55,673 bases of DNA, from positions 1 through 55,673 of IMG/VR virus record IMGVR_UViG_3300024265_000061; one strand, written 5' to 3'. Positions 149 to 54,221 of the stretch are shown here, piece after piece. The stretch's first letter is position 1. Each line of letters begins with the position of its first letter. This stretch comes from a virus. The notes beneath the pieces are model-generated. The model saw only the letters and a program-made list of their open reading frames with translations, made no database searches and was not told the origin of the DNA. A program made the translations under genes and the position numbers.

Positions 149-906
149 TGGATTTCGAGTGGGCGGCAACTGGAGATGCCTTTAGTGTCGAACCAGTAGC
201 AGATGACTGGATTGTAATGGCCAAATCAACCCGGTACAATTCGGGGTCGCGTCCACAGCTTAGTTGGGGACTCAATGACTGGATTAAATCGTCTGGTTAT
301 ATTCTTGGGGGTTCTTCCTCAAATGCTGCGGCTCTTAACTTGACGACATATCCACAGTTTAAGTCTCAGGTTAAGGCCGTGAACGGGCCTCTTACCGATG
401 ACGTGATTAACGGTTATATCGGTGGATACCTGGATGCTTATCCGGGTGAAACCTTAGACACTGTTATTACTACACAGGGCGTTCAGTTGAAGTGGCTGCA
501 ACAGCCGGGTCTGTATAACAACAGACAGAACTATGAGCGTACCGGAAAAGCCCTGAGTTTCAAGGGTGGTTGGTCTCAGATTGCTTATGAGTTCGGTGGA
601 CGAACCTATGAGTGGATTATGAGTCCGATGTGCTTGAGTAATACTCTGTATGCCTTGAAGTTTGGTGGGGACAATATTCAGCGATTTAGTCCTCCGAGAT
701 TGGGCGGAGTGGAAGCAAGTATGGGGCCAGAGATTGAATTTTTGGCTCCTCTTGGTGGCCTCTCCGGGGTGTTTATGATTTCTACTGCCTCTACAGGTGC
801 TCCGCAGGATTTATTGGAGGCTCCGTTCTGGTATTACAATTTAATTGCTCCAAGTGATCCGCGAGCGGTCAAGCTCGAAAATTTAACTGAGGCCACAATG
901 CTTTGA
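1..906 (+). CDS. Major capsid protein, C-terminal part (continues from 54833)
   Basis: This is the last 301 codons of the capsid gene whose start lies at 54833. The 148-bp overlap of the contig ends joins the two parts in frame (231 + 301 = 532 residues). It forms the shell of the head. Assignment rests on position after terminase, portal and scaffold-like genes and on a size and composition usual for capsid proteins (few Cys, balanced charge, many Gly, Thr and Tyr). I do not recognise the specific capsid family from motifs. The first base here is not a true start: GTG at 1 is an internal codon. Confidence 0.7.
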   Translation: MGATPATTGAEVKNYEYGETDYVILIITSVDYLGKAITVKAINSVDGGGMDFEWAATGDAFSVEPVADDWIVMAKSTRYNSGSRPQLSWGLNDWIKSSGYILGGSSSNAAALNLTTYPQFKSQVKAVNGPLTDDVINGYIGGYLDAYPGETLDTVITTQGVQLKWLQQPGLYNNRQNYERTGKALSFKGGWSQIAYEFGGRTYEWIMSPMCLSNTLYALKFGGDNIQRFSPPRLGGVEASMGPEIEFLAPLGGLSGVFMISTASTGAPQDLLEAPFWYYNLIAPSDPRAVKLENLTEATML

Positions 907-930
907 TAACTCCTTATACAATAAGGACTT

Positions 931-1719
931 ATGATGCCAAAACTAAACGAAATAAGACAAGGTCGGGACATTGGCAAAAAACCAGATGCTCAAAAATTTA
1001 TCTGGGCTGCTTGTCCTGATTGTGAGATAGCTCGTTGGGTTGTTCTTCTTGTAGGAGAAAATAAACCTCAACGAGAACGATGCAGAGCATGTGCTCAACA
1101 TCTCCGTAAAGGAGAAAAAAGAGGCATCGCCCATAATCGACTCAATCTCATCGGCCAACGGTTTACTCGTTTAGTTGTATTACATGATACTGGAAAAACA
1201 AAGCATAAAGAAAGTCTCTGGGAATGTCAATGTGATTGTGGTAACATAACAGTCACAACTGGTTATAGTCTTACTTCTGGAAACACAAAAAGTTGTGGGT
1301 GCTATCACAAGATACGCACCCAACAGCTTTTCAGTAAACCATTAGATGAATTACGAGTTAATCGAATTTTCTTTGCTTATCGGAAACTTGCCCGAACTAA
1401 AGGTCATTGTTTCAAACTCTCTAAGGAGCAAATTCAAAGTTTGATTTCCGCTGATTGTTACTACTGTGGATGTAACCCTGAAAATTCTCTGGTATATCAC
1501 GGAAAAACTATTATCTATCAAGGTATCGACCGATTAGATAATTCCAGAGGATATGAGACTAAAAATGTCGTTCCTTGTTGCATACGGTGCAATAAAATGA
1601 AAAAAATCTTGAGCCACGATGAGTTTCTGTTGCACATTCACAGAATATCTTCGAGGTTTGAGACAGAATCTCCACAGGCTGATTGTTATTCCGAAGTCTG
1701 CGGAGGTCAAGTTCTTTAG
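931..1719 (+). CDS. HNH homing-type endonuclease directly after capsid gene
   Basis: 262 residues. The C-terminal third carries an HNH nuclease core: a CYYCG zinc knuckle near residue 188, GIDRLDNSRGY near 206 and CCIRCNKMK near 225. The N-terminal part has further zinc-binding pairs (CPDC, CRAC, CQCDCG, SCGC) that probably bind DNA. Starts at ATG 931 after AAGGACTT. Free-standing HNH genes of this kind cut DNA and spread by homing. It sits 25 bp after the capsid stop, mirroring the HNH gene just upstream of capsid. One CTGCGGAGG motif lies near its 3' end (1698). Confidence 0.85.
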   Translation: MMPKLNEIRQGRDIGKKPDAQKFIWAACPDCEIARWVVLLVGENKPQRERCRACAQHLRKGEKRGIAHNRLNLIGQRFTRLVVLHDTGKTKHKESLWECQCDCGNITVTTGYSLTSGNTKSCGCYHKIRTQQLFSKPLDELRVNRIFFAYRKLARTKGHCFKLSKEQIQSLISADCYYCGCNPENSLVYHGKTIIYQGIDRLDNSRGYETKNVVPCCIRCNKMKKILSHDEFLLHIHRISSRFETESPQADCYSEVCGGQVL

Positions 1720-1730
1720 AAAAAGTGAAT

Positions 1731-1799
1731 AACGGAGAGGTCGATATTTTTCATTTTCTTCCTTTCTCGTAGTCGGTGTTTCAGACCTCTCCGTTTTCT
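1731..1799 (+). terminator. Long-stem inverted repeat, likely terminator after HNH gene
   Basis: A perfect 12-bp stem (1731-1742 with 1784-1795) is followed by TTCTTTG. The 41-nt loop is T/C rich. The long stem and the position between two transcription blocks suggest termination, although the loop is longer than usual and the T tract is interrupted. Confidence 0.55.
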
Positions 1800-1831
1800 T
1801 TGAAATGTAATTTAGCTAAGGAGAAAAAACA

Positions 1832-3865: not shown

Positions 3866-4390
3866 ATGCTTGTTCATACAGTTAGAGCAGCTTGGACGGC
3901 GATTAGAACAGCCATAGCTACGGTAGATTGGCCGACGACCGGTGGAAATACATACGACCCTCCGGATGATGTAACAGAGCGGTTTGTTGATTATATGGTT
4001 GATACCGATGAAGCTGCCTTGCCATATATCAATTTATCTAACGATACGGCTCTGAACCATCTGGAACTTCGGGCACATTTTAACGACAACGCAGGCACGG
4101 CCACTATGCAAATATTCGCAGCCCGCGAAGGTGAAACTACTGTTAAAATGATTGCAGAAGTGGCGTGGACTGCCGGAACTCAACCAACGGCCATATCATC
4201 GGCTCGATATTTTGCCAAAACAGGTGTTGTGACTCAATATTGGAATAAAACTATTAGTGTTACTGCGGAGGAATCTGGAACAGGAATTGCAACGGTCTCA
4301 TTCGATACTTTTGGTTACAATAGATTTTGGATTGGCTTCGATGCCATCAGCGGTTCAGATAATGTGACAGTCGAATATAGTGGACTTTGA
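3866..4390 (+). CDS. Hypothetical virion-region protein, 174 aa
   Basis: 174 residues from ATG 3866 with TATAGGAG upstream. The protein is beta-rich with many Thr, Ala and Asp, no Cys and no membrane segment, which fits a structural or decoration protein. It lies between a terminator and the LamG-domain gene, with a 6-nt gap to the latter. I do not recognise the family. Confidence 0.6.
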   Translation: MLVHTVRAAWTAIRTAIATVDWPTTGGNTYDPPDDVTERFVDYMVDTDEAALPYINLSNDTALNHLELRAHFNDNAGTATMQIFAAREGETTVKMIAEVAWTAGTQPTAISSARYFAKTGVVTQYWNKTISVTAEESGTGIATVSFDTFGYNRFWIGFDAISGSDNVTVEYSGL

Positions 4391-4396: not shown

Positions 4397-5680
4397 ATGC
4401 CTCCAAAACATGATAAGAAAATCAAAAAAAAGATGGGTTATACTCTTACATATGATGACGAACTAAAAAAATCCATTTGGAGAGGATTCCCAGACCTTAA
4501 CTATTTATTTGAGGGGGAAGATATACTTGTCTGGGAACGTGAGATTATCAACGAAGATGGGAAGAAAGAAACAGTCAAGACCTACAAACTGCCTATTAGG
4601 ATAACCGCCGATTTCAAACCTGAAAGCATAGTTTACGGCCTCGACAAGGAAGGCAAAATTGAGGGGGCTGCCGTCAAGAAATTCGGCGGTGCACTTAAAG
4701 GTTTTGTGTGGCTTGATAATGTATCTGGTGGTGGTGAAGTTATTTTCCCGTTTACAGCCCCACACATATTCATAGCCAAAGGTAGCAGACTTCTCCCGGA
4801 ACTCATTGAAATCTTTACAGACCCTAAATCTGATAATTACTACAAGATTGTAGATGAGAAAACCCACGTTTTTGTCCAGAGCTTTTCCGGTGTCGGCGGT
4901 GCTGCCGGTTCTCCACCCACGCTTATTGCTGAGTACAAAATGAATGATAGGCTTGCTACTGCTGTCATTCTTGATTCAAGTGGAAATGGCCATAATGGGG
5001 CGGTTAAAGACGCCACAGGAACGGCGACCTCGGCATTTCATTCTGTAGTTGGAAAAATAAATAGAGCACAAGACTTGGATGGGACAGATGATTACATTAA
5101 GATACCTGACCACGCCAACTTTACCCCGGCCTCGACTCCGTTTAGCATTGAGACATGGATTTATATGCACGATACTTCTAATTTTCGGATTATAACCAAA
5201 GGAGTATTTAATACAGATGCCGAATGGCTGTTGCGTATATTTAGCAATAAGTTGGGTATATTCTTTTACGATGAATCTGTTGATGATTGTTTTATTGGCC
5301 GAAGTTATGATACAGCTTTAGTCGAAAATCGGTGGTATCATTCAGTCGCAACTTATGATGGAGGAACTTTAACTTCTGGAATAGGAATCTATGTAGATGG
5401 TAAACGTGTTGATGATAAGGATATTCATAGTAATCCTGACTCTTTTGTGGCTGTAGAAAATCTCAATGCACCTGTTTATATTGGTCGATTGGGTACAGAT
5501 TATGCTGACGGCCTCATCGATATTACAAGATTCTACAACAAAGTACTCACACTTGATGAGATTAAACGTCTTTATAACAACGGACATGGAACTGAAATAT
5601 TAACTGAAGTAGATGAACCTCGATTGCTATTGAGACGCAATAATTCACAGTTTGGCCTCCGCAGTAGATATGAAAAATAA
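4397..5680 (+). CDS. LamG/concanavalin-fold domain virion protein
   Basis: 427 residues. Residues about 175-400 form a laminin G/concanavalin A-like domain: YKMND, DSSGNGHNG, LDGTDDYIKIPDHANF, FSIETWIYM, WYHSVATYDGG, IYVDGKRVDD, YIGRLG and GLIDITRFYNKVLT appear in the order expected for LamG_3. Such domains bind carbohydrates, so a role in host-surface binding is likely. The N-terminal 170 residues are of unknown fold and begin with a Lys-rich stretch. No obvious ribosome site precedes ATG 4397; it is probably coupled to the upstream gene 6 nt away. Confidence 0.7.
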   Translation: MPPKHDKKIKKKMGYTLTYDDELKKSIWRGFPDLNYLFEGEDILVWEREIINEDGKKETVKTYKLPIRITADFKPESIVYGLDKEGKIEGAAVKKFGGALKGFVWLDNVSGGGEVIFPFTAPHIFIAKGSRLLPELIEIFTDPKSDNYYKIVDEKTHVFVQSFSGVGGAAGSPPTLIAEYKMNDRLATAVILDSSGNGHNGAVKDATGTATSAFHSVVGKINRAQDLDGTDDYIKIPDHANFTPASTPFSIETWIYMHDTSNFRIITKGVFNTDAEWLLRIFSNKLGIFFYDESVDDCFIGRSYDTALVENRWYHSVATYDGGTLTSGIGIYVDGKRVDDKDIHSNPDSFVAVENLNAPVYIGRLGTDYADGLIDITRFYNKVLTLDEIKRLYNNGHGTEILTEVDEPRLLLRRNNSQFGLRSRYEK

Positions 5681-6127: not shown

Positions 6128-6520
6128 ATGCTTGGGATGATCTCTGTATTTACCTCCGCAGAACATACAATTATCAAAGGTAGTGGGATTCCTGAATTCT
6201 TAGGGCGATTAGTGGAAGGGGACTCTCAACGGAAGGGTTGTCTATTCCTTATTCGATATAATAAGCTCGGAGTCTTTTGTATCTGTGAATGGATTGGTGG
6301 TGGCCAAGATACTTTTGTGGATATTTTGAATCTCGGGAAATCTCTGGGAAACTTCGGTCATGCGGAGGCCCAGGAACTACGCAGACGATTATTTGCCCCG
6401 GTTACTGCGGAGGAATCAGCCCAAGAAATTATAAGGAATGATAGCGATTTCTACCACAATCTTCAAGACGAGGATTCAGAAGAAACAGAAAGACAGGAGC
6501 GAGTTGCGATAGGAGAATAA
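6128..6520 (+). CDS. Hypothetical protein, 130 aa, acidic C-terminus
   Basis: 130 residues. The first 90 residues look globular; the last 35 are acidic (LQDEDSEETERQERVAIGE). Two CTGCGGAGG-type motifs (6361, 6405) and a third in reverse (6153) fall in this gene, coding for different residues each time. Function unknown. ATG 6128 follows AAAAAGGAGTAAAAT. Confidence 0.6.
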   Translation: MLGMISVFTSAEHTIIKGSGIPEFLGRLVEGDSQRKGCLFLIRYNKLGVFCICEWIGGGQDTFVDILNLGKSLGNFGHAEAQELRRRLFAPVTAEESAQEIIRNDSDFYHNLQDEDSEETERQERVAIGE

Positions 6521-6521: not shown

Positions 6522-7109
6522 ATGCCTATTAGCGAAGAGTCAAGACAAAAGATGGGTTGGAAGAAGGGTAGACTTTTTACTGCTTATTGGAAATCTTGTG
6601 TAATATGCGGGAAAGAATTTAAGACTGTTCCATCAAGCAGTAAACAATATACTTGTAGTTCTAAATGTATGGGAATAAGAAGAAGAGTTGAACGCAAAAC
6701 CTATAAATGTGCTTTTTGTAATGAAGATATAACTGCAATTAAAACATCTGGACGTAAATACTGTAGCAATAAATGTAAAATAAATGCTTTAGCTGTGTTA
6801 AAGAAACAGCGATATGCAAATAAAAGAATATTTGGCAAATGGCGAACTCATAAAACATTAAAAGCATATTTGCTTGATAAGTATAGAGCATGTCAAATAT
6901 GTGGTTGGAATTCTGAAATAAGAGTATTGGAGAAACACCATATAGACCGAAACAAAAAGAATAATGTAGAGGATAATCTTTTACTTCTATGCCCTAATTG
7001 TCATTCTATTGAACATTATAAGGCTTTGGACGGCCAATATAAATATAGCTTGGGAGGTCTTCGAGATGCCCTTCAAGTCGGAAAAGCAAAGAGGTTGGTT
7101 ATGGCATAA
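6522..7109 (+). CDS. HNH endonuclease with zinc-finger N-terminus
   Basis: 195 residues. Four zinc pairs precede the nuclease (CVICGKEF, CSSKCMG, CAFCNED, CSNKCKI), then CQICGWNSE, LEKHHIDRNKKNN and LLLLCPNCHSIEH form a classic HNH core near residues 125-170. More A/T-rich than the genes around it, consistent with later insertion. It follows the previous stop by 1 nt and its 3' end overlaps the next small gene by 44 nt, so insertion has been fitted between neighbours. Confidence 0.85.
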   Translation: MPISEESRQKMGWKKGRLFTAYWKSCVICGKEFKTVPSSSKQYTCSSKCMGIRRRVERKTYKCAFCNEDITAIKTSGRKYCSNKCKINALAVLKKQRYANKRIFGKWRTHKTLKAYLLDKYRACQICGWNSEIRVLEKHHIDRNKKNNVEDNLLLLCPNCHSIEHYKALDGQYKYSLGGLRDALQVGKAKRLVMA

Positions 7110-7379: not shown

Positions 7380-8939
7380 ATGCCTGCTCCTATTTCATTG
7401 CCCCCAAATCTCGGAGATTACTTAGTAGATTCGACGGTCTACATTTTCTGGGATACTTTTAATTCCAGTAATGCCTCCGTGACCCAGAGCGGTCTCGCCG
7501 TAACCGATATTGAAATCTATAAAAATGAGAGCATGACTCAACGGGCCTCTGATGCGGGTTATACACTTCTTGACACCGATGGGATTGATATTGATGGGGC
7601 TACTGGTTGTCATGGGATTTCTATTGATTTAAGTGATAATACCACAGCAGGATTTTATGTTCGGGGAAATGATTATTCGGTTATGGTTAATGCCGTAACC
7701 GTTGACGGCCAGACTGTACGATTCTGTGCAGCCGTCTTTAGTATTGAGAATCGAGCCGGAAGAAATGGAGTTGGGGATTATCAAGTTACTCTGACGATTC
7801 GGACTACCGGTGGAGATGCTGTTTCTGGGATTTCTGTATGGGTCAATAGTTCCAATACTCGTTCTGCTTCCGTAGCTGGAACCAAAGTCACTGACACGAA
7901 TGGCCAAATTGTGTTCAATCTGGAATATACTACATACTATATATTCTGTAATTTGTCTGGTTATACTTTTGCTTCTGCGTCTTTTACCTCCGCAGCAGGA
8001 AGTGTTTCATTCACAAAAGATATAGCTACGGTCACAAGTGCTGGCTCAAGTGCTTACTATACTGAGAGCTTTTTAACAAGAGCAATAGTGGATGCACGGG
8101 AAAGTACAGATGAACCAGTCGTTGCAGCTAAATATTCAGATTCAAGGATCATAAATATTCTTGAAAAAGCATATATACTGGTTCTTAATGAGGTGAATCG
8201 AAACTCTCGGACACCTGCCGTTGCTAAAATTAACAAGACGATTGTTTCCGGGACTACAACATATCCACTACCTCATACTGTTGGGTCTGTTCACGGAATC
8301 TATAAAGTAGGTGATACTGGTGGAAAGGTTTTTTATGATTCTCGAAGTAAATTTAATTCATTCGGGAGAGGTATGTGGATTGAGAATCAAACTCTTCATA
8401 TCCAAACCACTGATATGTATGGTCTTGGGACAGAAATAACAATCGAATATATCCCATCAGGAATTGCAAGGCTTCACAATGGAACCTGCACTCTGAATGC
8501 CGATGGTGATGTTGTAACGTTTGGTGCTGTTCCAAATGCAGGAGCACTTGATACACATCACGAGGCTTATGCAGGAAGTATATTCAGATGTTTAGGGTCA
8601 GATGGAACTGGAAATTATTTGCAGGAACGAGTAATACCAGCCTACGACGAAACTACACGGGAAGCCTCACTTGATGCTCCTCTTGATCCAATTCCAACTG
8701 GGAATATTTATTACGAGATTGCACCTGCGATTAGTAAGGGAATGGATACTGTCGTTGCCTTATATGCGGCCTATAGGATTATGGCTACTGAAGGAAATGC
8801 TAAAAGAGCCACAGGTATTCTCAAGGCTTACCGGAATGAAATAAGAAATGTCCGATTAACGGCCTACTATTCCTATTTACCTGATGCCCCGATAGACCGG
8901 AGTGATAACCCTAACAACAGACGTTATTGGAGAGGTTAA
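7380..8939 (+). CDS. Adaptor-like virion protein with N-terminal Ig-like domain
   Basis: 519 residues, ATG 7380 after AAGAAAGGTAGTTACAA. Residues about 130-215 look like a carboxypeptidase-regulatory/Ig-like beta domain (VTDTNGQIVFNLEYTTYYIF). The C-terminal 290 residues follow the plan of phage head-tail adaptor proteins: DSRIINILEKAYILVLNEVN, a TTYPLPHTVGSVHGIYKV segment, a beta middle, and a helical end with VALYAAYRIMATEGN. This would place it at the portal-tail junction. The assignment is by pattern, not by a strict signature. Confidence 0.5.
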   Translation: MPAPISLPPNLGDYLVDSTVYIFWDTFNSSNASVTQSGLAVTDIEIYKNESMTQRASDAGYTLLDTDGIDIDGATGCHGISIDLSDNTTAGFYVRGNDYSVMVNAVTVDGQTVRFCAAVFSIENRAGRNGVGDYQVTLTIRTTGGDAVSGISVWVNSSNTRSASVAGTKVTDTNGQIVFNLEYTTYYIFCNLSGYTFASASFTSAAGSVSFTKDIATVTSAGSSAYYTESFLTRAIVDARESTDEPVVAAKYSDSRIINILEKAYILVLNEVNRNSRTPAVAKINKTIVSGTTTYPLPHTVGSVHGIYKVGDTGGKVFYDSRSKFNSFGRGMWIENQTLHIQTTDMYGLGTEITIEYIPSGIARLHNGTCTLNADGDVVTFGAVPNAGALDTHHEAYAGSIFRCLGSDGTGNYLQERVIPAYDETTREASLDAPLDPIPTGNIYYEIAPAISKGMDTVVALYAAYRIMATEGNAKRATGILKAYRNEIRNVRLTAYYSYLPDAPIDRSDNPNNRRYWRG

Positions 8940-8941
8940 TT

Positions 8942-11248
8942 GTGGCAGAAGTTTTTACTACCTCCGGTGAAGATAGTAATAATGTCACGGTTCCCCGTCC
9001 GATTTTACAGGGTTTATTAATACCTGGCATAGACGACCCCCAAGCAGTAGATGGGTTTGGAATAGTCACTCCTTGGGGAGGAGGTAGCACCACAAGACGA
9101 TATGGGGATTATGGAATCTCCCAAGATATATCATCTCAGCAGACCCAATTAAATGACTTATCAAGTGCTTTTATCCCTGCGGAGGGTCGAGGAATAGGAA
9201 CAACATATAATTTCGAGGGATTAGTCGGCCCACAAGGGCCACGAGGCCCAGCGGGGCCACCGGGAGTTTCCGGAATAACTAGTTTACCTTATGGTTATGT
9301 TTTACCAACTAATTCTAATTTTCTGGCAGTACTTCCTCACAATATTGACCAAATAAATGTCCTTGGTACAGCAGCCGATAAATTACTTTACACAGACGCA
9401 CTTAATACTTACGGAGGAAGTACAGAGTGGGTAGAGCGACAACCGGCTGGGGCTGTGAATGTGAATTGGCAAAGTGTAGCATCTGACTTAGATGGTTCTA
9501 ATCTAATAGCTTGTGTTGAGGATGGAAGATTATATACCTCTGCTGATTATGGGGTAACATGGACAGAGAGACAACCGGCTGGAGCGGCAAATAAAGTTTG
9601 GGCGGCTGTCGCTTCGGATGCGGATGGTTCTCATCTAATTGCCGTTATTAAGGATGGAAGATTATATACTTCTAATAATTCTGGTGTAAGTTGGACAGAG
9701 AGACAACCAGCCGGAAATGCTGATAAACAGTGGAGCAGTGTAGCTTCTGATTCAGATGGTTCCAATTTAATAGCATGTGTTACCAATGGAAGATTATATA
9801 CTTCCGCTAACTATGGTGTAAGTTGGACAGAGAGACAACCAGATGATGCAGATGACAATTATTGGACAAGTGTTGCATCAGATGATGATGGTTCTGTTTT
9901 AATAGCCGGGAAAGGTAATACTACTGTAGCGGCTTTATATATATCCATTAACTCCGGAGTTAGTTGGTCAGAGGAAATACCAGCCGCCGCTACTATTTCT
10001 TGGTATGGAGCAGCCTCTGATGCAGATGGTTCTGTTTTAATAGCCGGGGGTCTTACCGGAAGAATAGCTATATCAGCCGATAGTGGTGGTTCTTGGACGT
10101 TAAAAGGGGCTGCTGGAGGGGATGATTGGCATTGTACCGCTACAAATTCAGATGGTTCTTATATAATAGTTGGTAGTGGAACTAATTTATATGAATCTTT
10201 TGATTCAGGTGTAACCTTTGCAGAAACAAAACCTGCCGGGGCTACAACTAAAGTTTGGCGAACAGTATCAACTTCCTTGGAAGGTTCTAATACAATCGTA
10301 GGAGTTCGGGGAGGTCGATTATATACCGGCACGGTATCTATGGGATACTCTGAAGCGACTTGGGCAGAAGCAGATTTAACCTCAGCGGGGAGAGCTATAT
10401 TAGATGATGCTAATGCAGCGGCACAAGCAACTACTTTAGGGGTAGGAACAGGAGACAGTCCAACTTGGGCGGGGGCTACGTTCACAGGCACGGCATCGGG
10501 TGTCATCCCAACAGCAGGTGCACATCTTGCTACCAAAGAATATGTAGATTTAGCGATAGGTGCTTCGTCAGATTATTTTCTATCAGATAATGATGATGCA
10601 ATCGCTAATTATCATATATTATATGAAACTGATACAGGTGAGGCAGCAAGCGATGAAGAAACTGCTGCGATGGATGAGGGTGACGACCAACTGATGTTCA
10701 GTTTTATTACTGCATCTGGTGTACCTGGAGTCACGTTCTTGAGGTCAGGTATATATGTTTTACATACGCATTTAGCAAGAACAACAGGAAACAGACCAAC
10801 TACATTTTATTGGACATTAAGCAAATATGCGTTAAACGCCGACGAAACGGTTTTGATGACTTCTGAAACGTCATCTGCGATTCCTGGTTCAATGGCTTCA
10901 TTTATTACCCATGCGGTGCTGGCTGCCGATGCGACTATTTTAACTACCGATAGATTGGTTCTTAAACTACACGCTAATGTTACGGGTGGTGGTCAGGATT
11001 CTATAATCACCATCTATATGGAAGGCTCTCACGATTGTCACCTAACTAATTTACTTCCGAGTGATATATGGCAGACACAGGGGGATATGCTTGATGCTGT
11101 AAATGCTCTTGGTGATATTGCTGATAATGAGTTCTTAGTCGGTACTGGTGCTGGTACATTGGCTTGGGAGAGCGGAGCGACTGCACGAACATCCTTGGGT
11201 GTTGAGAGTTCAGATGATTCAAAAAGGTATGCTTTAATGTTATGCTAA
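8942..11248 (+). CDS. Tail fibre with collagen segment, seven Asp-box repeats and trimer-like C-terminus
   Basis: 768 residues from GTG 8942, chosen because GGAGAGG lies 7 nt upstream. An N-terminal anchor is followed by a collagen-like stretch GPQGPRGPAGPPG near residue 100, then seven repeats of about 44 residues ending in Asp-box motifs (SADYGVTW, SNNSGVSW, SANYGVSW, SADSGGSW) that build a beta-propeller. A fibre-shaft segment (TSAGRAILDDANAAAQATTL, HLATKEYVDLAIG) and a beta-sandwich that could be C1q/TNF-like follow. It very likely binds the host surface. The end (KRYALMLC) looks abrupt. Confidence 0.75.
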   Translation: MAEVFTTSGEDSNNVTVPRPILQGLLIPGIDDPQAVDGFGIVTPWGGGSTTRRYGDYGISQDISSQQTQLNDLSSAFIPAEGRGIGTTYNFEGLVGPQGPRGPAGPPGVSGITSLPYGYVLPTNSNFLAVLPHNIDQINVLGTAADKLLYTDALNTYGGSTEWVERQPAGAVNVNWQSVASDLDGSNLIACVEDGRLYTSADYGVTWTERQPAGAANKVWAAVASDADGSHLIAVIKDGRLYTSNNSGVSWTERQPAGNADKQWSSVASDSDGSNLIACVTNGRLYTSANYGVSWTERQPDDADDNYWTSVASDDDGSVLIAGKGNTTVAALYISINSGVSWSEEIPAAATISWYGAASDADGSVLIAGGLTGRIAISADSGGSWTLKGAAGGDDWHCTATNSDGSYIIVGSGTNLYESFDSGVTFAETKPAGATTKVWRTVSTSLEGSNTIVGVRGGRLYTGTVSMGYSEATWAEADLTSAGRAILDDANAAAQATTLGVGTGDSPTWAGATFTGTASGVIPTAGAHLATKEYVDLAIGASSDYFLSDNDDAIANYHILYETDTGEAASDEETAAMDEGDDQLMFSFITASGVPGVTFLRSGIYVLHTHLARTTGNRPTTFYWTLSKYALNADETVLMTSETSSAIPGSMASFITHAVLAADATILTTDRLVLKLHANVTGGGQDSIITIYMEGSHDCHLTNLLPSDIWQTQGDMLDAVNALGDIADNEFLVGTGAGTLAWESGATARTSLGVESSDDSKRYALMLC
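9427..10335 (+). repeat. Seven in-gene repeats encoding Asp-box (BNR) units
   Basis: Units of roughly 126-138 bp encode the block ERQPAG-(spacer)-ASD-DGS-LIA-(spacer)-GRLYTS-GVSW. The first three are nearly identical in protein and share long DNA identity such as GATGGTTCT; the last four are diverged. Repeat number could change by recombination. Confidence 0.8.
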
Positions 11249-43257: not shown

Positions 43258-43551
43258 ATGTTAACCAACGACCGAAATATAATCGGAGTAGTGATAGAAT
43301 GCTACGACCACTCTGCAACTCATCGCATAATGGTCGCCCAGTTGAATGATGAACCAGAGGCAAAAGAATTTCTCTATTTCTATCTTCCCAAAACCCCCAA
43401 CATAGATTTCGGAGACCATATCCAAATAAACCTTGCGGAGGACAGAATCTATGTTGTCAAAGGAAACTCCCGACTATCCTACAGAATAATCCCCTCCACA
43501 TTCCCGAATACCTTACTCTGGGAGCTAATGACCGAAAGGATGAACCTATGA
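43258..43551 (+). CDS. Hypothetical protein, 97 aa
   Basis: 97 residues, mixed beta, no motif recognised (ends MTERMNL). Starts 3 nt after the previous stop with no good ribosome site, and its stop overlaps the radical SAM start by 4 nt. Confidence 0.55.
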   Translation: MLTNDRNIIGVVIECYDHSATHRIMVAQLNDEPEAKEFLYFYLPKTPNIDFGDHIQINLAEDRIYVVKGNSRLSYRIIPSTFPNTLLWELMTERMNL

Positions 43552-44249: not shown

Positions 44250-44250
44250 T
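44222..44250 (+). promoter_or_regulatory. Probable sigma70 promoter
   Basis: TTGGAA (44222-44227), 17-bp spacer, TATAAT (44245-44250), overlapping the end of the radical SAM gene. It would open the packaging-region transcript. Confidence 0.6.
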
Positions 44251-44268
44251 ATAGTAAAGGAAGAAATT

Positions 44269-44685: not shown

Positions 44686-44686
44686 T

Positions 44687-44842
44687 ATGGCGAGGTTTTG
44701 TGTGGATTGTGAATGGTTAAAAAATGGGCGATGTCCTAAAACTAAGAAAAATAATTATCCGTTAAGTTCAGATAGTCCCTATATAAACCCCGATGATTGG
44801 TGTGCGGATTTTAGTCTTAAACCAGAAAGAGTTGAAAAATGA
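44687..44842 (+). CDS. Small Cys protein, 51 aa
   Basis: 51 residues from ATG 44687, 1 nt after the previous stop, ribosome site GGGGACAAATA. CVDCEWLKNGRC and a late WCADF give a compact metal site typical of tiny phage proteins. Overlaps the next start. Confidence 0.55.
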   Translation: MARFCVDCEWLKNGRCPKTKKNNYPLSSDSPYINPDDWCADFSLKPERVEK

Positions 44843-45111
44843 AGTTAGCTCGTTTGTGGAATTTATTGCCTAATGATTTACATTTGTTTGGGCCGGGGAC
44901 ACGAATCCATAGGCTCGTTCAGAGGATTATAGATAAAGTAAAGAAGTGTCCGAATTGTGGTAGTTCTCAATTCCAAAAAAATCGACTACGTTGTTATCGG
45001 GGTTGGCATTGGTTTTGTCTTGATTGCTCTCTTAGTTTCAGAACCGCTGTGGATTGTCCCGTCTGCTATAAAAAACTTCCAAACTCTATAAAAAAAGGGG
45101 AACAAAAATGA
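44839..45111 (+). CDS. Zinc-ribbon protein, 90 aa
   Basis: 90 residues. An N-terminal helix (HRLVQRIIDKVKK) then CPNCGSSQF, CYRGWHWFCLDC and CPVC form two zinc sites. Overlaps both neighbours by 4 nt. Nucleic acid or protein binding; role unknown. Confidence 0.55.
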   Translation: MKLARLWNLLPNDLHLFGPGTRIHRLVQRIIDKVKKCPNCGSSQFQKNRLRCYRGWHWFCLDCSLSFRTAVDCPVCYKKLPNSIKKGEQK

Positions 45112-45630: not shown

Positions 45631-46376
45631 TGACCAACGAAATTGAAAAACCAAATCCTGATGATGTGTTGGCGGCCATTACCAGCTTTAATGACCCGTC
45701 TATCATCACAAATATATTTCGGGAACTTGGGTGGACATATTCTTTTGAGATTAAAGAGTGGCTTATATTGGCCAAACAGAATGCCAATCTCTCTGTTAAA
45801 TCTAAAGCTCTTATTCAGCTTCGTCATTTACTACAGGAGGCCGCTGAAACTGCGGGTTATACAGCTAAAATATCTCAAACGATGCCTAATGCCCAAGGAG
45901 GTCAAACTACTTTCTCAGCAAAACGTATCTCCGGTATTTTGAATCCGGTCAAACAAATAAAATCAACTATTAAGGAATCCAAAAATGTCCAAACCGAAGA
46001 AACCCGAACCGAACCCAATCGAGAAAGCGATAGGCGAGAGAACGAAACCGAAAACGGAAGTGGAGAAAATACTCCAAGCCCCGACAGAGGTAGCAAAGAA
46101 GATTCTATCCGAGATACCAGACGAGCCTTCCCCCTCGGAGATGCTGAATTTGGAGGAATTGAACCGCCAGACGGAGGAGAGATTTCAGGAAGAGTGGCCG
46201 GAGGATGCGGCGACGGGGCCGACAACTGTAAAGACAGCGGAACAACTCAAAGAGGAGAGGGTATTGGGAATGGCGGAAGTGGTGGGGTCATTGAAGGAGG
46301 AAGTCCCTGTATCAAAACCCGTCCCCCAACCTGTGACAGAGATTTATTCCCCGGAATCTCCTCCGCAGAAGAATGA
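45630..46376 (+). CDS. Terminase-small-subunit candidate with overprinted tail, 248 aa
   Basis: Residues 1-118 look like a genuine helical protein (FRELGWTYSFEIKEWLILAK, LIQLRHLLQEAAETAGYTAK) and could be the small terminase because of its place before the large subunit. From 45985 the frame runs for 392 nt on top of the next gene, giving a Gly/Arg/Glu-rich, low-complexity tail (GGCGDGADNCKDSGTTQRGE). The tail may be a chance open frame or a real overprinted disordered tail. Confidence 0.45.
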   Translation: MTNEIEKPNPDDVLAAITSFNDPSIITNIFRELGWTYSFEIKEWLILAKQNANLSVKSKALIQLRHLLQEAAETAGYTAKISQTMPNAQGGQTTFSAKRISGILNPVKQIKSTIKESKNVQTEETRTEPNRESDRRENETENGSGENTPSPDRGSKEDSIRDTRRAFPLGDAEFGGIEPPDGGEISGRVAGGCGDGADNCKDSGTTQRGEGIGNGGSGGVIEGGSPCIKTRPPTCDRDLFPGISSAEE

Positions 46377-46869
46377 TTTTTATTGTCCTGCTTGTGGGAT
46401 TTCGTTTGAGAGTAATAAGGTTCTAATAGGCCATGATTGTGAAGCAGCCCAAAAAGAGGTGCAAGAGTATGAGGGTATGAAAAAAGAATTCACAACACTT
46501 CAAATGAATTGTAAATATTGTATTCCTGCGGAGGATATTGAACTTACGGCTCTTCGGAAATATATTCTGGAGGATGGTTTTGTCTTGGCCACCGTCGCTT
46601 TTCATATCGTGACATTATGTGCTCAACCGATGGTGACACCATCAACGACTACTTGGGATTTCAAAGACCGGGCAAATGTTCCAGATATGGTTTTGGCTCT
46701 CCTGAATCAGCCAGGGTATCTTGAAGGTATTTGGCCAAGCCTGAGAATTGTGATGGGTTCAAATAAAGGTAATTCTGCTTGGTGTGCAGGAATCGCTACG
46801 ACCTTGGCATTTTTCGATACCGTGAGGTTGCTCCCAACATTAAAGGAGTTACAAGATGAAGAAAAGTAG
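45985..46869 (+). CDS. Zinc-finger protein with acidic N-terminus, 294 aa
   Basis: 294 residues from ATG 45985 with TAAGGAATCCAAAA upstream. The first 130 residues are Glu/Pro/Lys-rich and probably disordered. YCPACGISFESNKVLIGHDC holds a zinc site, and a second pair NCKYCIP follows. A helical C-terminal part ends the protein. It overlaps the previous frame by 392 nt and the next by 14 nt. A packaging or maturation role is suggested only by location. Confidence 0.6.
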   Translation: MSKPKKPEPNPIEKAIGERTKPKTEVEKILQAPTEVAKKILSEIPDEPSPSEMLNLEELNRQTEERFQEEWPEDAATGPTTVKTAEQLKEERVLGMAEVVGSLKEEVPVSKPVPQPVTEIYSPESPPQKNDFYCPACGISFESNKVLIGHDCEAAQKEVQEYEGMKKEFTTLQMNCKYCIPAEDIELTALRKYILEDGFVLATVAFHIVTLCAQPMVTPSTTTWDFKDRANVPDMVLALLNQPGYLEGIWPSLRIVMGSNKGNSAWCAGIATTLAFFDTVRLLPTLKELQDEEK

Positions 46870-47083: not shown

Positions 47084-48931
47084 ATGTGGCTAAATAGACC
47101 TTATCCGCTGTGGCCTCTACCGAGGGACTACGAGGAACTGAATTCTGAAGCTCAGAAGCAGGCACGGTTGACTGTGTTGCATAATCAATCAACTCCTTTT
47201 GACTTGGTAGTTGCTTGGGATTTTTTTCGTCGCTGCTACTTAGCTGGGGCCGGAAAACTCTTTTATAAAAAGTCCTTTGAGGAATCACCTGAATTTCATT
47301 ATGAGTTAGTTAATGACCTTGGGCAATATGCCAGAAATTGTATAGCCGCCCCAAGAGGTTCTGCTAAATCTACTGTGATAGGATTGGAAATCCCTATATT
47401 ACTTGCTCTAACTCGTCCTCATTATGAAATGTCACTTGGGTTATCTACCGATAAACAAGTAGAAAAGCGATTTAGTAAAATAATGCAACAATTTGTAAAG
47501 AACGAGTTAATATTGCAGGACTTTGGGGAGATGAAACCGCGTCGTGGCTTGGGTATATGGAATCATCATTATTTACAGTTGGAAAATGGAGCCGTTATAA
47601 ATGGAGAAAGTGTAATGGGAAAAAAGAGGGGGGGGAGACCTCGATTATATATACTCGATGACCCTGAGTTTGATCCGGATTCTGATTCACAGGCCGCTGC
47701 TCAAGCTGTTATAGAGAAATTTGAGATGATTTTATTTCATCAGATTTTACCCATGCTTGAAGAGGGTTCGTCAATTTTCTGGATAGGAACATTGATTAAT
47801 CGGCGGTCTTTTTTGTATCACGCTACGGAGGGAGACGACCCTCGATTTAGTTTTTGGAATCGCAAAGTCTTGAAAGCAATAGCGTATGATAAAGAGGATT
47901 CTAAAAAGGTTTATGTTCTGTGGCCAGAAAAGTGGTCGCAGGAATTTCTTGAGGCTCTTCGTGAGTCGATGGGGCCATCTGCATTTGCAAGTGAATTCTG
48001 TAATGAGCCGGTGTCGGCACAAGAACGCATTTTAGTGATTGACCCTCGGAAGAATGAATATAGTGTTGATGGTGAATTTGATTGGAAGAATCCGCTGGCC
48101 CACATGGGGAATATAAAGTGGTCGGAACGATATATGGAGCCCGGACGCCGGGTCTATAAAGACTTTGAGAAACCCTACAAAGAACTCGTGTTGCCGATGT
48201 ATCGGATTTTACTATTCGATTATGGCAGTGGGATGTCCCAGTATAATGACTATTCCTGTATTATGATTCTTGGATTTGACACCACGAATACTTTATGGAT
48301 TTTGGATATGTGGCTTGGACGTGCCAAGGATGCGACTTTACTACGACTGATTTATGAATACGGATTGGCTTGGCGACCGCGTGTTCTTGGAATTGAAGCC
48401 GTGAGTATTCAGATGAGTTTTGCGGAGGCCGTTAAAGAATATATTGAGGAGATGGAGGAGAAAATCTCACAGCCTTGGAGAGCGAGAGTTTTCCCAATTA
48501 CATATCCGGCTCGTGTAACTAAATCTAATCGAATCTCTGGTATGGAATGGAGATACCGTCCCGGCAGGATAAAATATCCGGCACACCTCGCTGGCAAGTG
48601 GCCCTTTGATCAGCTATATCAACAGACGGAGGATTTCACCCCAGACTTGGCCTTATTGCCCCACGATGATGCTATTGATACCCTCTCAATGTATCAGTAT
48701 GTTGTTAAGAATCGTGGTGGGAAATTCGTTAAAGAGAAGGGGAAACCAAGTTTGTTGGAGCGTATTAAGAGAAATCTTCCCATTGTGCGTGGAATCCCAC
48801 TACTTTCGGGGGTCAGTTCTACCGAAATCACTTCGGAGATGCTTGATATACTCTCCCAGAATGCCCGCAAAAGTGTTATAGATAAAAATGACCGCCGAGT
48901 AATTCGAGGCCAAAGAAACATTATAGGATAG
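47084..48931 (+). CDS. terL: Terminase large subunit
   Basis: 615 residues. ATPase: Walker A APRGSAKST (about 90), Walker B LYILDDPE (about 191). Nuclease: LLFDYGSGMS (Asp near 379), LGIEAVSIQM and LLPHDDAIDTLSMYQY (Asp pair near 530) form the RNase H-like site that cuts concatemers. It motors DNA into the head through the portal. The final residues RGQRNIIG also end the gene at 49040. ATG 47084 follows the previous stop by 3 nt without a clear ribosome site. Confidence 0.93.
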   Translation: MWLNRPYPLWPLPRDYEELNSEAQKQARLTVLHNQSTPFDLVVAWDFFRRCYLAGAGKLFYKKSFEESPEFHYELVNDLGQYARNCIAAPRGSAKSTVIGLEIPILLALTRPHYEMSLGLSTDKQVEKRFSKIMQQFVKNELILQDFGEMKPRRGLGIWNHHYLQLENGAVINGESVMGKKRGGRPRLYILDDPEFDPDSDSQAAAQAVIEKFEMILFHQILPMLEEGSSIFWIGTLINRRSFLYHATEGDDPRFSFWNRKVLKAIAYDKEDSKKVYVLWPEKWSQEFLEALRESMGPSAFASEFCNEPVSAQERILVIDPRKNEYSVDGEFDWKNPLAHMGNIKWSERYMEPGRRVYKDFEKPYKELVLPMYRILLFDYGSGMSQYNDYSCIMILGFDTTNTLWILDMWLGRAKDATLLRLIYEYGLAWRPRVLGIEAVSIQMSFAEAVKEYIEEMEEKISQPWRARVFPITYPARVTKSNRISGMEWRYRPGRIKYPAHLAGKWPFDQLYQQTEDFTPDLALLPHDDAIDTLSMYQYVVKNRGGKFVKEKGKPSLLERIKRNLPIVRGIPLLSGVSSTEITSEMLDILSQNARKSVIDKNDRRVIRGQRNIIG

Positions 48932-49723: not shown

Positions 49724-49815
49724 TTAAAAATATACTATGTATCCTGATTATCGCTTATACCCTGCGGAGGATATATTGCATATTTAGGAAACATTGGAGA
49801 ACTTACAATGGATGA
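49720..49815 (+). CDS. Small membrane-like protein, 31 aa
   Basis: 31 codons from ATG 49720, overlapping the YopX-like stop (ATGA). Hydrophobic start (NILCILIIAYTL) then basic end. The LRR codons are a CTGCGGAGG copy (49762). Overlaps the next gene by 8 nt. Function unknown. Confidence 0.4.
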   Translation: MIKNILCILIIAYTLRRIYCIFRKHWRTYNG

Positions 49816-50093: not shown

Positions 50094-50390
50094 ATGTTTA
50101 ACTTGAATTTGGGATTAATTTTCTTGGCTGGACTGGTTTCGGTTGGGATTCTTGTTTATATTCTGGTACTGTTAATAATTCAGCTTAAAATCGTCAATCG
50201 TCTCACTGAAACTAATAAGCAGCTTCTTATTGTTGTGGCGGGGCAGAATCAGAAACCAGAGACATTACGAGCACTTGTGGCATCGGCAAAACCTCCGCAG
50301 GGGAAGTTAAAAGGGATAGCTGGTGGGGGGAAAGATAAGAAGAATAAGTCTGGTAATACCAATTTCACAATGGATATAGGGGTTAGATAA
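50094..50390 (+). CDS. Small membrane protein before portal, 98 aa
   Basis: 98 residues. One long N-terminal hydrophobic helix (GLIFLAGLVSVGILVYILVL) and a soluble Gly/Lys-rich end (GIAGGGKDKKNKSG). AAGAAAGGAAGGTTTCT precedes ATG 50094. Ends on the first base of the portal start. Could be a spanin- or holin-like protein, but head assembly anchoring is also possible. Confidence 0.5.
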   Translation: MFNLNLGLIFLAGLVSVGILVYILVLLIIQLKIVNRLTETNKQLLIVVAGQNQKPETLRALVASAKPPQGKLKGIAGGGKDKKNKSGNTNFTMDIGVR

Positions 50391-52411
50391 TGGGCTATAA
50401 GTTCCAGTTACCAGAAAATACACCTGGGAATAAACAGCAAGTTGAGGCTATATTCCAATATCTTGTCTCGTCAGGCAAGTCGAAAATGAATCCCATTTCG
50501 ATTAATTGGTATATGAATCATTTCTATATGAGGGGATTACGGAATTTTAGTAATATTAATTATGGAGCTGGCACACTTAATGCGTCTTATCTGGACTCAT
50601 CTGGGACACTGAAGTTTAAGTACGAGGACATCGTGGCGAAATATCAAGCCCAGCTTGGGAGGTTATTGGCGATAAATCTGGCTCCGGCTGTATCAAGGAG
50701 AGGTGTGAGTCTTGATGGTTTAAGGAAGGCAAGTACCGCTCAAGTCGTTTTGGATTCCGCTTTCCCACAAGAGAAAGTTTCTAAATTGGCTCTGAGTGCT
50801 TTCCCTCCACTTCTGCACTATGGAACTATTGGATTTGGATTATGGGTTGAGGGAATTGATAGTATTGGGATTGAGGTTATCAATCCTTGGGAATTGATTC
50901 CGATTCCAATAGATGTCTCTACGCCGTCAGATGTGCGAGGATTGATTCGAGTACGATATGTGCCCTCAGATTATGTGAAGGGTCTTTCAATAACTCCGGG
51001 TAAGGGGTCAAAAGTCTATAAGGGGATGGATGATGTGAAAGTTCCTTTGGGGGACATACCTGCGGATGTATCCTCTAACTTCCGAGGAACTGCTTCTCTT
51101 ACTCATACAGGCGGGGGCTTTTATATTCGTAGTGGTCAGAGTCAAGTTGAGACTCAATGGAAAGGGCGACATACTAAAAAAGACAAGACGCAAGTTGATG
51201 TTACCCTGCTTGTTGAAGTGTGGACAGAAACATCGGATGGATATTTGGCAGAGTATCTTATTTTTGCCGGTTCTTATGAGAAATTAAATCAGTTGTATCG
51301 CCACGATCATTCTCAGAGTAAATATCCTATGCCTGTGAAAATTGCACGGGATATTGTTGTAGGTGGATTTTATGGTCGTTCTTTTATTGATATTTTAACT
51401 CCACTGAACACCGAGGCCGAATACAGTCTTAGTAGTCTCTTTCAATCAGTAGCCGATTTTGATTTGTACGGTGTAATGATGTGGCCTGCATCTCTTGGGA
51501 CACCTACAGATGCTCATAGAGGGAGGGATGGAATCAAGCGAATAACATTCGAGCCTGATTATACAACCCCGGAATTAAAACCTTTCCCTCTATTACCTGC
51601 AAAAATGGGGAAAGCTAACATAGAGGCTGCGATGGTTGCTGGTGGTTTGATGGACAAACTTGCAAATCAGCCAAGAGAAATGATGCAGGGGGATGCTCCT
51701 GGTCGTGTGGATTCTGCTTCTGGCTTGGGTTTCCTTTACGAAACAAGTGGAATTCCTCTTTCCCCCACAGCTAAAAATGTGGCCGAGGCAATATCAGGAA
51801 TCTACAGGGCAATGTTAGGAATATGTAAAGATATTTGGCCTGCGGAGAAGGTTGTTAATATCAGCAACCTCGATGATTCTCTGGCCGGAATAGCTTTCGA
51901 TATGGAAACCGGGGAAATCAATCTCGCCAGAAATGCTATCCCTGCTCCTGATGAGGTCAACATCAATGTGGCTTCCGAAGTTCCAATTTCTACGGAGCAA
52001 CAAAAATTAGAATTAAAAGAAGCCCTTGAAAAACAAATAATCACTCTTGGTGAATATGGTTTCGAGGTTAGAAAAAGAGGATTAAATTTGGTGGTCGGCA
52101 ATGAAGTTGATTATCAGAATCGAAGGCGAGCGAAACTCGAAAATCTTGCTCTTTACGGGGATGGAGAAAAACCCGGTAAAGTTATCGTAAGTGAACGCGA
52201 TATGCACCTAATTCATAAAGAAGTACTTGATGCTTTTATGGCTCGGCCTGAATTCTACGCCGCAGACCAAAAAGTAAGAGACGCTTTTGTGCAACACTAC
52301 GAAGAACACAATGTCGGATTGGGAATATTCCCGGAAGGAATGCCTCCGATGGAAGATGCCGCAGAAATGGAAATGCAACCTCCGCAGGGTGGAGGCGAAA
52401 TACCACAATAA
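50390..52411 (+). CDS. Portal protein
   Basis: 673 residues. Size, the place between terL and the scaffold-like gene, and segments such as GTIGFGLWVEGID, VINPWELIPIPID, FYGRSFIDILTPLNTEAEYS and a Gln/Glu-rich end (EMEMQPPQGGGEIPQ) fit the portal, the dodecameric channel through which DNA passes. ATG 50390 overlaps the previous stop by one base. Portal families are poorly conserved, so the call relies partly on order. Confidence 0.8.
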   Translation: MGYKFQLPENTPGNKQQVEAIFQYLVSSGKSKMNPISINWYMNHFYMRGLRNFSNINYGAGTLNASYLDSSGTLKFKYEDIVAKYQAQLGRLLAINLAPAVSRRGVSLDGLRKASTAQVVLDSAFPQEKVSKLALSAFPPLLHYGTIGFGLWVEGIDSIGIEVINPWELIPIPIDVSTPSDVRGLIRVRYVPSDYVKGLSITPGKGSKVYKGMDDVKVPLGDIPADVSSNFRGTASLTHTGGGFYIRSGQSQVETQWKGRHTKKDKTQVDVTLLVEVWTETSDGYLAEYLIFAGSYEKLNQLYRHDHSQSKYPMPVKIARDIVVGGFYGRSFIDILTPLNTEAEYSLSSLFQSVADFDLYGVMMWPASLGTPTDAHRGRDGIKRITFEPDYTTPELKPFPLLPAKMGKANIEAAMVAGGLMDKLANQPREMMQGDAPGRVDSASGLGFLYETSGIPLSPTAKNVAEAISGIYRAMLGICKDIWPAEKVVNISNLDDSLAGIAFDMETGEINLARNAIPAPDEVNINVASEVPISTEQQKLELKEALEKQIITLGEYGFEVRKRGLNLVVGNEVDYQNRRRAKLENLALYGDGEKPGKVIVSERDMHLIHKEVLDAFMARPEFYAADQKVRDAFVQHYEEHNVGLGIFPEGMPPMEDAAEMEMQPPQGGGEIPQ

Positions 52412-52429
52412 TAATTTGAAAGGAACAAA

Positions 52430-52723
52430 ATGGAAAGAACAAACGTTTACAGATTGATTGATGGAGAGCGGGAATACCAAGAATCTTTGCCTTTGCATCA
52501 GGATAAAAAACAACAGCGAAATACCCCGATAGCATCTTGGTTGATTTATATGGAAGAACAAATTAGAGAAGCGAAGTTCGCTATATATAATTTGAATGGA
52601 GATGGGGCATTAGAGCATATACGAAAAGCAACGGCTATTGGTGTAGCTTGTATGGAGCATAACGATACAAATCCTCGGAAAGTTCTTTCTCAAGGAAAAC
52701 TACATACTTACGATGGTAGTTAA
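52430..52723 (+). CDS. Small helical phage protein, 97 aa
   Basis: 97 residues after AATTTGAAAGGAACAAA. EREYQESLPLHQ, SWLIYMEEQIREAKF and EHIRKATAIGVACMEHN match a common small phage protein of unknown role. Encoded between portal and scaffold genes. Confidence 0.6.
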   Translation: MERTNVYRLIDGEREYQESLPLHQDKKQQRNTPIASWLIYMEEQIREAKFAIYNLNGDGALEHIRKATAIGVACMEHNDTNPRKVLSQGKLHTYDGS

Positions 52724-52753
52724 GATAAATACAAAAATTTTGAAAGGAAAAAA

Positions 52754-53311
52754 ATGTTTCGATTGAAAAAAGGGGATATTGTTATAATTAAGGATGATAG
52801 TACCTTGTCGCCTGTATATGGTGGTTCCAAACGGAGTATTGTATCGGGGACACTGGTTGAACAAATTTTTCTTCTTAAATATAAACATTTATTTAGAATT
52901 GTCGAGCTTGATTGTATATTTCCTGATACGAATAACAATACTGTAATCCAAGCTATAACGCCGGAAGATCATCAAGTGGTAATATTTATTGAATATCGTT
53001 ATCTCCAATTATATGAAAAATCAATACTCCCTGACGAAATAGGGCCATTACTGCCAAGTCAAAAACCTCCAGAACAACGTAGCACAATATTCACTTTATC
53101 CGAAAGAAAAAAAAAGAACGAAAAAATCAAAAGGCCAGAAAAAGAAACCTACCGTGTTGAGGTAATTTGCTCTAATTGTGGAAAATTCCAACATGACTCA
53201 AATAGTGGTATAGGTTTTGAAATTCCAAAAGGTACATCAACCCCCCGATTTTTGGCTGACAAGCCCTGCGAGGGTTGTGGTTGTAAGACATTAAGAGCCA
53301 GAATCTTATAA
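52754..53311 (+). CDS. Hypothetical zinc-ribbon protein, paralogue of the frameshifted gene at 21839
   Basis: 185 residues from ATG 52754 after TTTTGAAAGGAAAAAA. The N-terminal half shares the pattern KKGDIV, then CIFPDTNNNTVIQA, VVIFIEYRYLQ with the gene at 21839. The C-terminal half adds a linker and a zinc ribbon (CSNCGKFQHD, CEGCGCKT). The first half starts like an SH3-like small barrel. Its uninterrupted start supports the shifted reading of 21839. Confidence 0.6.
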   Translation: MFRLKKGDIVIIKDDSTLSPVYGGSKRSIVSGTLVEQIFLLKYKHLFRIVELDCIFPDTNNNTVIQAITPEDHQVVIFIEYRYLQLYEKSILPDEIGPLLPSQKPPEQRSTIFTLSERKKKNEKIKRPEKETYRVEVICSNCGKFQHDSNSGIGFEIPKGTSTPRFLADKPCEGCGCKTLRARIL

Positions 53312-53339
53312 GTGAAATCTTATTTTAGAAAGGAAAAAA

Positions 53340-54221
53340 ATGCCAGAGCCAGAATCCAAAATAGAGCCGGTCGTAGAACCGAAAACTGAACCCAAGACAG
53401 AGCCAAAAACCGAACCAAAGGTTGAAACCCACACTATTAAGGTGGATGGAGCAGATGTAGCCTTGACTCTTGACGAGCTAAAAACAAGAGCCGAAAAAGC
53501 GTCGGGGGCTGACAAAAGATTTCAAGAATCCGCAGAAGGCCTAAAAACCGCTGAGCGGGGAATTAGGATAGAAACTCTCGTAAAGTCAATATCTAACAAC
53601 GATACGCCGTCAGAAGCCGATGTTCGTGAGTTGGCCGGATTGTTGGAGATTGAACCTGCTGAGTTTATGTCCTATCTTAAAGAAGGTGAGCCTGAGCCGA
53701 AACCAGGCACAAAAACCACCTCCGCAGACTTTAATACTGAGTTCCAGAAGGTGATGGGGGCTTCCCCTGCGGAGGTCAAAGCTGTTTTGGATTTCTCCCA
53801 GCAACGGCACGTCAATGATGCTCGGAAAGAAATTCGAGAAATATCGGACAAAGCGGTTGACAAAGATGAGATAATTGGTAAAATGATAGTAGGTGAGGAC
53901 AGCAAAGAAGTGTTGTCCGAAGTTAAGAATATGGTAGCTGAGGATGTTCTACAGAAGATACAGAATGGAAAGACGTTTGGAGCCGAGTTGGTTACGGCGA
54001 GCGTACAGATGGTGCGGTCGAAGTTGACTAAATTGGGTATCCCAAAGAAACTCAACCAGCAACCCATTGTTTTGGGCCTGGCTCCGAGTGAAGGACTTTC
54101 ATCTTTAATCCAAGCTGATGAACCAATCAAGCGAGTTCCTTCTAACGAAGATGACCAAGAGAAGAATCTTATCGCAAGGTATCTTCAGAAGGCAGTTCAT
54201 ACTGCTCGGAAAATGAAGTGA
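53340..54221 (+). CDS. Scaffold-like protein
   Basis: 293 residues; highly charged, helical, no Cys, with a Glu/Pro/Lys repeat at the start (EPKTEPKTEPKTEPKVE) and a basic end (YLQKAVHTARKMK), directly before the capsid gene. This is the usual plan for a head scaffolding protein, which shapes the procapsid and leaves it. GAAAGGAAAAAA precedes ATG 53340. Two CTGCGGAGG copies (53719, 53767) lie 40 bp apart in opposite orientation. Confidence 0.65.
   Translation: MPEPESKIEPVVEPKTEPKTEPKTEPKVETHTIKVDGADVALTLDELKTRAEKASGADKRFQESAEGLKTAERGIRIETLVKSISNNDTPSEADVRELAGLLEIEPAEFMSYLKEGEPEPKPGTKTTSADFNTEFQKVMGASPAEVKAVLDFSQQRHVNDARKEIREISDKAVDKDEIIGKMIVGEDSKEVLSEVKNMVAEDVLQKIQNGKTFGAELVTASVQMVRSKLTKLGIPKKLNQQPIVLGLAPSEGLSSLIQADEPIKRVPSNEDDQEKNLIARYLQKAVHTARKMK

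Follow-up and report, generated by a model that had tools for sequence, protein, structure and literature searches.

A strand-balanced nine-base word, conserved across a phage family and evenly arrayed on each DNA strand, as a possible Chi-like signal

Lambdoid, T5-like and P1-like phages carry Chi sites in excess (Bobay et al. 2013, PMC3784561). Among lambdoid phages that have no recombinase, the median observed/expected ratio is about 3 and the density about 0.2 sites per kb, and Chi tends to be lost from phages that combine a recombinase of their own with a RecBCD inhibitor (PMC3784561). In cluster A mycobacteriophages, stoperators are oriented with transcription and sit in promoters and short intergenic gaps (PMC9283540). 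Here we examine CTGCGGAGG, a word dispersed through the 55,673 bases of the IMG/VR virus record IMGVR_UViG_3300024265_000061 (this whole stretch is called the window below), and compare it with these and other systems.

Like Chi, CTGCGGAGG is a short, non-palindromic, G-rich word in which phage genomes are enriched far above composition, and it is consistent with the protection of DNA ends and concatemers. It differs in length (9-11 bases), density (about 0.65 per kb against about 0.2) and enrichment (about 150-fold against about 3-fold), as well as in being strand-symmetric, evenly spaced per strand, spread over the whole genome, replaced by clade-specific words within one family and carried by a phage that has Sak4. 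With stoperators it shares many asymmetric sites genome-wide (PMC9283540) and variants in related phages, but its orientations are balanced despite one-way genes and most sites lie inside genes. The DNA uptake sequences (DUS) of Neisseria and uptake signal sequences (USS) of Haemophilus are likewise dispersed 9-12-mers in both orientations, with some close inverted hairpin pairs between genes; our word is found in a phage genome, shows even per-strand spacing and has no known competent host. The FtsK-orienting sequences (KOPS) are also polar G-rich words, but they are strongly strand-biased, whereas CTGCGGAGG is strand-balanced and alternating.

Exact copies of CTGCGGAGG and of its two end-anchored 8-mers were counted on both strands. 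The window holds 36 exact copies (17 + and 19 -), from 1698 to 53775, and 49 sites when the end-anchored eight-of-nine forms are included (26 + and 23 -, spanning 799-53775), figures identical to those of the original prediction, which had counted about 36 exact copies and 13 eight-base forms. One hundred dinucleotide shuffles of the window gave a mean of 0.19 copies and a maximum of 2, and a second-order Markov model expects 0.24, not the tens that composition would have to yield. The 36 copies, about 650 per Mb, thus lie far above chance, as had been claimed, and by the same Markov model CTGCGGAGG is the most enriched 9-mer of the window by a wide margin. By the codon phase of the gene model, 17 genic sites fall in phase 1, 7 in phase 0 and 3 in phase 2, and about eight sites are intergenic. 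All of the 71 called genes lie on the + strand. The word is G-rich in its 3' half, as are many Chi sites, and within 30 bases of it no extended conserved partner motif was seen, except for a depletion of G immediately 5' of the word. Among the literature matches listed for the CTGCGGAGG string, none concerns a phage or a recombination signal.

A search with the open reading frame (ORF) at 14885-15934 gave ten relatives. The motif search that had been proposed for related phages found CTGCGGAGG in nine of them, with 23-57 copies in each of the eight records longer than 40 kb (among which G002 and G004 are near-copies) and 16 in a 19-kb fragment. At protein-identical positions in codon alignments the 9-mer was retained in 368 of 435 ordered comparisons (85%), while control 9-mers of similar G+C were retained in 11%; when the window was set against each relative, the word was kept in 44 of 55 comparisons, with controls at 5-16%. 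All these comparisons have common ancestry and so lack independence; the distance to the controls is nevertheless very large. Across eight genomes, 227 of 295 word sites are genic, and the 23% that are intergenic compare with 15% of bases. These results confirm that CTGCGGAGG is under purifying selection as a DNA word and that coding does not explain it, in line with the argument first drawn from the three codon phases and the intergenic copies. A compositional or coding by-product, in favour of which there is nothing besides the frequent use of codon phase 1, is rejected on the Markov expectation, the retention at protein-identical positions and the intergenic copies, and its probability is practically negligible.

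The roughly even overall spacing originally described did not hold, since the pooled sites of the window are spaced nearly at random (coefficient of variation, CV, 0.87 against 0.96); the evenness exists within each orientation. The + sites alone have a CV of 0.47 (p=0.001) and the - sites alone 0.65 (p=0.047), and in most genomes each orientation taken by itself is spaced more evenly than random. The even array on each strand interleaves with that on the other, which makes the orientations alternate. When positions were fixed and orientations permuted over 12 genomes and seven words, the z values were -6.6 for the per-strand CV, 6.2 for alternation and 5.6 for the contrast between inward (+ then -) and outward (- then +) gaps, in a test where five genomes have CTGCGGAGG and common sites, and hence are not fully independent, and where the G014 word had its orientation label assigned once its gaps had been seen. 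The words could be aligned in ten genomes, where the median gap is 491 bp outward and 1,755 bp inward; with pairs closer than 120 bp dropped, the medians are 621 and 1,755 bp (z 5.0). The window itself does not show this inward/outward asymmetry. The actual orientations shorten the two-sided unprotected stretch in every genome tested, and in the window the mean two-sided stretch between the nearest correctly oriented signals is about 4.1 kb, against 5.3 kb after permutation. No strong strand bias is seen along the replichore, the orientations being balanced and alternating. That each orientation is evenly spaced on its own, with outward neighbours close and inward neighbours far apart across the phage family, is new here; the per-strand array indicates that selection acts separately on each DNA strand, whoever reads the word.

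A portal-based scan gave 52 loci, in which the dispersed words of other clades were counted by their 9-base core. More distant relatives carry other words in the same layout, namely CTGCAGAGG, CTGCGGGGC, TTTGCAGGGG, CTGCAGGGGC, CTGGGACCACC and TGACGGGGGAC. Thus G009 has no CTGCGGAGG and holds CTGCAGAGG 16 times (0.7 expected); cores are found 29 times each in G011 (CTGCGGGGC), G012 (TTGCAGGGG) and G016 (CTGCAGGGG), 34 times in G014 (TCCCCCGTC) and 19 times, in almost perfect alternation, in G013 (GGGACCACC). The fragments G019 and G020 have weaker candidate words. In several cases the words of related clades are one or two bases apart. The 16 rows with CTGCGGAGG fall into a single supported group on the portal tree; over all word labels the tree requires 10 changes, the minimum possible, of which two are for CTGCAGAGG. 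CTGCGGAGG is unchanged down to about 52% portal identity to the window, in carriers whose G+C ranges from 0.385 to 0.48 for whole genomes and reaches 0.55 in one G015 locus. These results show that the words are clade-specific and follow the phage tree, which is also new here.

The word is also found outside this family. Four lambda-like siphovirus head/tail fragments (L168, L185, L193 and L277), whose replication genes lie outside the fragments, carry 3-6 copies of CTGCGGAGG in 6-8 kb (0.5-0.9 per kb), partly at conserved places in L168, L185 and L193. Each of the four was recovered from a metagenome in which a family member is present too (L303 in 3300031566, L086 in 3300031539, G021 in 3300031673 and L051 in 3300009788), and no protein common to these fragments and the word-bearing family was detected. 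L168, L185 and L193 each have one inverted word pair, a potential hairpin, after a tail-region gene. A tail-region protein is 100% identical between L168 and L185 beside capsid proteins that are only 46% alike, which may reflect recent mosaic exchange among word-bearing siphoviruses.

Among the genes of the window, those of a candidate reader module encode a fusion of uracil-DNA glycosylase (UDG) and family A DNA polymerase (PolA; 22739-25408, +), an ERCC4-type nuclease (26099-26701, +), a PD-(D/E)XK exonuclease (28254-29306, +) and a Sak4-like RecA-type recombinase (31009-31968, +). The last adjoins a gene for a probable SSB-like protein (31992-32555), so labelled from its acidic DDDIPF tail and its place and unnamed by Pfam. 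PolA-UDG, the ERCC4 nuclease, Sak4 and the SSB-like protein are present in 14 of 14 long word-bearing genomes tested, and G017, which is devoid of all four, has no clear dispersed word. G435 has all four (31% identity for PolA and 36% for ERCC4) and yet no clear word; its best candidate reached z 7.5 against 5.8-6.7 in four Markov shuffles, with a G+C of 63% that hampers detection. No detected gene family is common to all word-bearing genomes and missing from G435, and no protein of undetermined function is restricted to word-bearing phages.

We tentatively read CTGCGGAGG as a polar Chi-like signal recognised by a strand-tracking machine, most likely a host enzyme of the AddAB/RecBCD type, a reading to which we give somewhat less than an even chance; that the reader tracks, that the host encodes it and that it resembles AddAB/RecBCD are points that we infer. 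A helicase-nuclease would track from a double-strand end until it meets a correctly oriented word, where degradation would cease and the DNA would be passed to recombination. Since the phage would have to be protected against ends on both sides, each strand would have its own evenly spaced set, and about one word per 3 kb per strand would limit the unprotected run. With phage lineages diverging alongside their hosts, the word would change clade by clade. The Chi-like reading agrees with the over-representation seen (36 copies against 0.2 expected, and 23-57 in the eight long relatives), and the module without a word in G435 and the presence of CTGCGGAGG in unrelated siphovirus fragments together favour, but do not prove, a host-encoded reader. 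A Chi-type site was already the lead candidate of the original prediction and still fits best; the concern raised there, that Chi is usually strand-biased, is answered in part, as each strand has its own even array.

Several observations weigh against this reading. No host was found: of the 398 Pseudomonadota genomes sampled, not one is enriched for the word, and the densest have about 20 copies per Mb, while the window has about 650 per Mb. GTDB species genomes contain, by the method used, no relative of the portal family, and an alignment of the siphovirus capsid found relatives only in Micavibrio/Alphaproteobacteria, in genomes without the word at notable density. Described Chi sites have 5-8 bases, while the word here has 9 to 11 specific bases, and its density and enrichment (0.65 per kb) are far above those of Chi in lambdoid phages (about 0.2 per kb, observed/expected about 3). 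Sak4 and an exonuclease are encoded by the phage itself, whereas the loss of Chi is the tendency where a phage recombinase is paired with a RecBCD inhibitor (PMC3784561), and G017, which has no Sak4, has no word, the opposite of the expected trend. The geometry does not reveal functional polarity, for Chi-like and opposite polarity fit about equally well, and a phage-encoded reader would also agree with the way in which the word drifts gradually across the phage tree. If the word is Chi-like, it is a readable label of the host recombination enzyme that could assign hosts to uncultivated phages, it would widen the range of length and strength known for Chi-type signals, and it would reveal a phage family in which the signal evolves.

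The reader may instead be the phage's own replication-recombination machinery (the UDG-PolA/ERCC4 nuclease/Sak4 module), with the word as a nick, priming or recombination-start site on each strand; this we consider possible but doubtful. The module accompanies the word in all 14 long word-bearing genomes tested and the word is missing with it from G017, the words are clade-specific and several are one or two bases apart between related clades, and per-strand arrays would suit strand-specific priming or nicking, with close outward-facing pairs as conceivable bidirectional starts. On the other hand, G435 has the same module and no detectable word, the same word occurs in unrelated siphovirus fragments, though these do not include replication genes, and known primases recognise about 3 bases. 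A phage-encoded, strand-specific processing system, with a polar word of 9-11 bases in two interleaved even arrays and with word and reader changing together by clade, is possible in the same doubtful degree; were the reader phage-encoded, this would be, to our knowledge, a genome-wide recognition system of an undescribed type.

Sites that bind a phage protein to silence transcription or organise the genome, in a stoperator-like or nucleoid-like manner, are unlikely. Their number, asymmetry and genome-wide spread resemble the stoperators of cluster A mycobacteriophages (PMC9283540), but even per-strand spacing is not required for simple binding sites, and no repressor or integrase was named among the larger proteins scanned in PHROGs and Pfam, small proteins being partly covered. 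Stoperator variants do differ among mycobacteriophage subgroups. Stoperators, and with them the host-immunity marks listed in the original prediction, are nevertheless contradicted, because the orientations are balanced (17 + and 19 -) with one-way genes (71/71) and most sites (227/295) lie inside genes rather than in promoters or intergenic gaps. An mRNA element is unlikely as well, given equal orientations in a genome with one-way genes. DNA-uptake or packaging/segregation words (USS/DUS-like or KOPS-like) would account for dispersed 9-mers in both orientations and for the few close inverted pairs that form intergenic hairpins in five relatives, and uptake words can double as terminators; however, KOPS-type replichore strand bias is not seen, uptake words need an enriched host, of which there was none among the 398 Pseudomonadota genomes, and we know of no even per-strand spacing in uptake words. 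We consider this quite improbable.

The hairpins just mentioned come from one intergenic inverted site pair in each of the five relatives, 23-37 bp apart and potentially GC-rich when folded, some being followed by T-rich DNA. These pairs, like those of the siphovirus fragments L168, L185 and L193, may have a secondary use as terminators. Close inverted pairs were rejected as the main function, as only these five form intergenic hairpins.

The exact sites of the window begin with 1698-1706 (+), within an HNH endonuclease ORF (931-1719), followed by 4263-4271 (+), 5656-5664 (-, the gene ending 16 nt further), 6153-6161 (-, common to G003), 6405-6413 (+, retained in 6/10 family members) and 7987-7995 (-). 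In the gene at 8942-11248 a + site stands at slightly shifted codons in different members: the one at 9177-9185 (+) is retained in 3/10, and in five others a + site stands about 17-21 codons further upstream. In the gene at 11963-14614, where some word sites are retained in 8/10 members, lie 12525-12533 (-, 8/10), 13346-13354 (-, 7/10) and 14478-14486 (+, 8/10). Retention is lower at 16188-16196 (+, 3/10), 16357-16365 (-, 5/10), 19019-19027 (-, 5/10) and 20797-20805 (-, 4/10), and 17480-17488 (+) is retained in 6/8; 20160-20168 (+) lies between the last two of the 10-member sites. Two sites fall in the DNA polymerase gene, 23384-23392 (+, 3/10) and 23754-23762 (-, 5/10), and at the latter place G009 has CTGCAGAGG. 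Intergenic sites are 21799-21807 (-), 22198-22206 (+), 37291-37299 (-), 39985-39993 (+) and 49762-49770 (+), together with 26904-26912 (-), 27380-27388 (+) and 46526-46534 (+), which are intergenic in the gene model. Those at 44660-44668 (-) and 46360-46368 (-) precede a gene end by 17 and 8 nt, respectively, and further sites are 33267-33275 (+), 33541-33549 (-), 37045-37053 (+) and 43668-43676 (-). Towards the right end, 50292-50300 (-) is retained in 3/7 members and 52379-52387 (-) in 5/9, and the closest divergent pair (48 bp) has 53719-53727 (-) as its left arm and 53767-53775 (+), retained in 6/9, as its right arm.

Some features of the phage stand apart from the word. The 883-aa protein of 11963-14614 is highly conserved and has a short, weak tail-sheath match, so that a sheath label is doubtful. 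The large terminase is encoded at 47084-48931, and 50390-52411 encodes a putative portal-like protein, labelled from its place and size and with no family hit. Among cultured phages there is no close relative, with distant terminase and polymerase hits only. The UDG domain of the 22739-25408 fusion is N-terminal and has a GxxPGxxE-like motif, and candidate iron-sulphur cysteines are largely conserved across the family. Genes for three distinct HNH endonucleases (931-1719, 6522-7109 and 25506-26120) are variably present in relatives. Of the 5-kb stretches of the window, 40001-45000 alone has a negative GC skew. Near contig ends, G012 (L111, 1136-1460) and G016 (L123, 2370-2442; L125, 16767-16995) have clustered short repeats in multiples of 6 or 12 bases, GCCATAGCC and CACCGAGTC, unlike the dispersed word. 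In G018, L129 holds at 7756-13391 a second repeated word, GTCCGATAA, clustered over a few kb in both orientations, which is enriched also in L098, on the same contig, and in L103.

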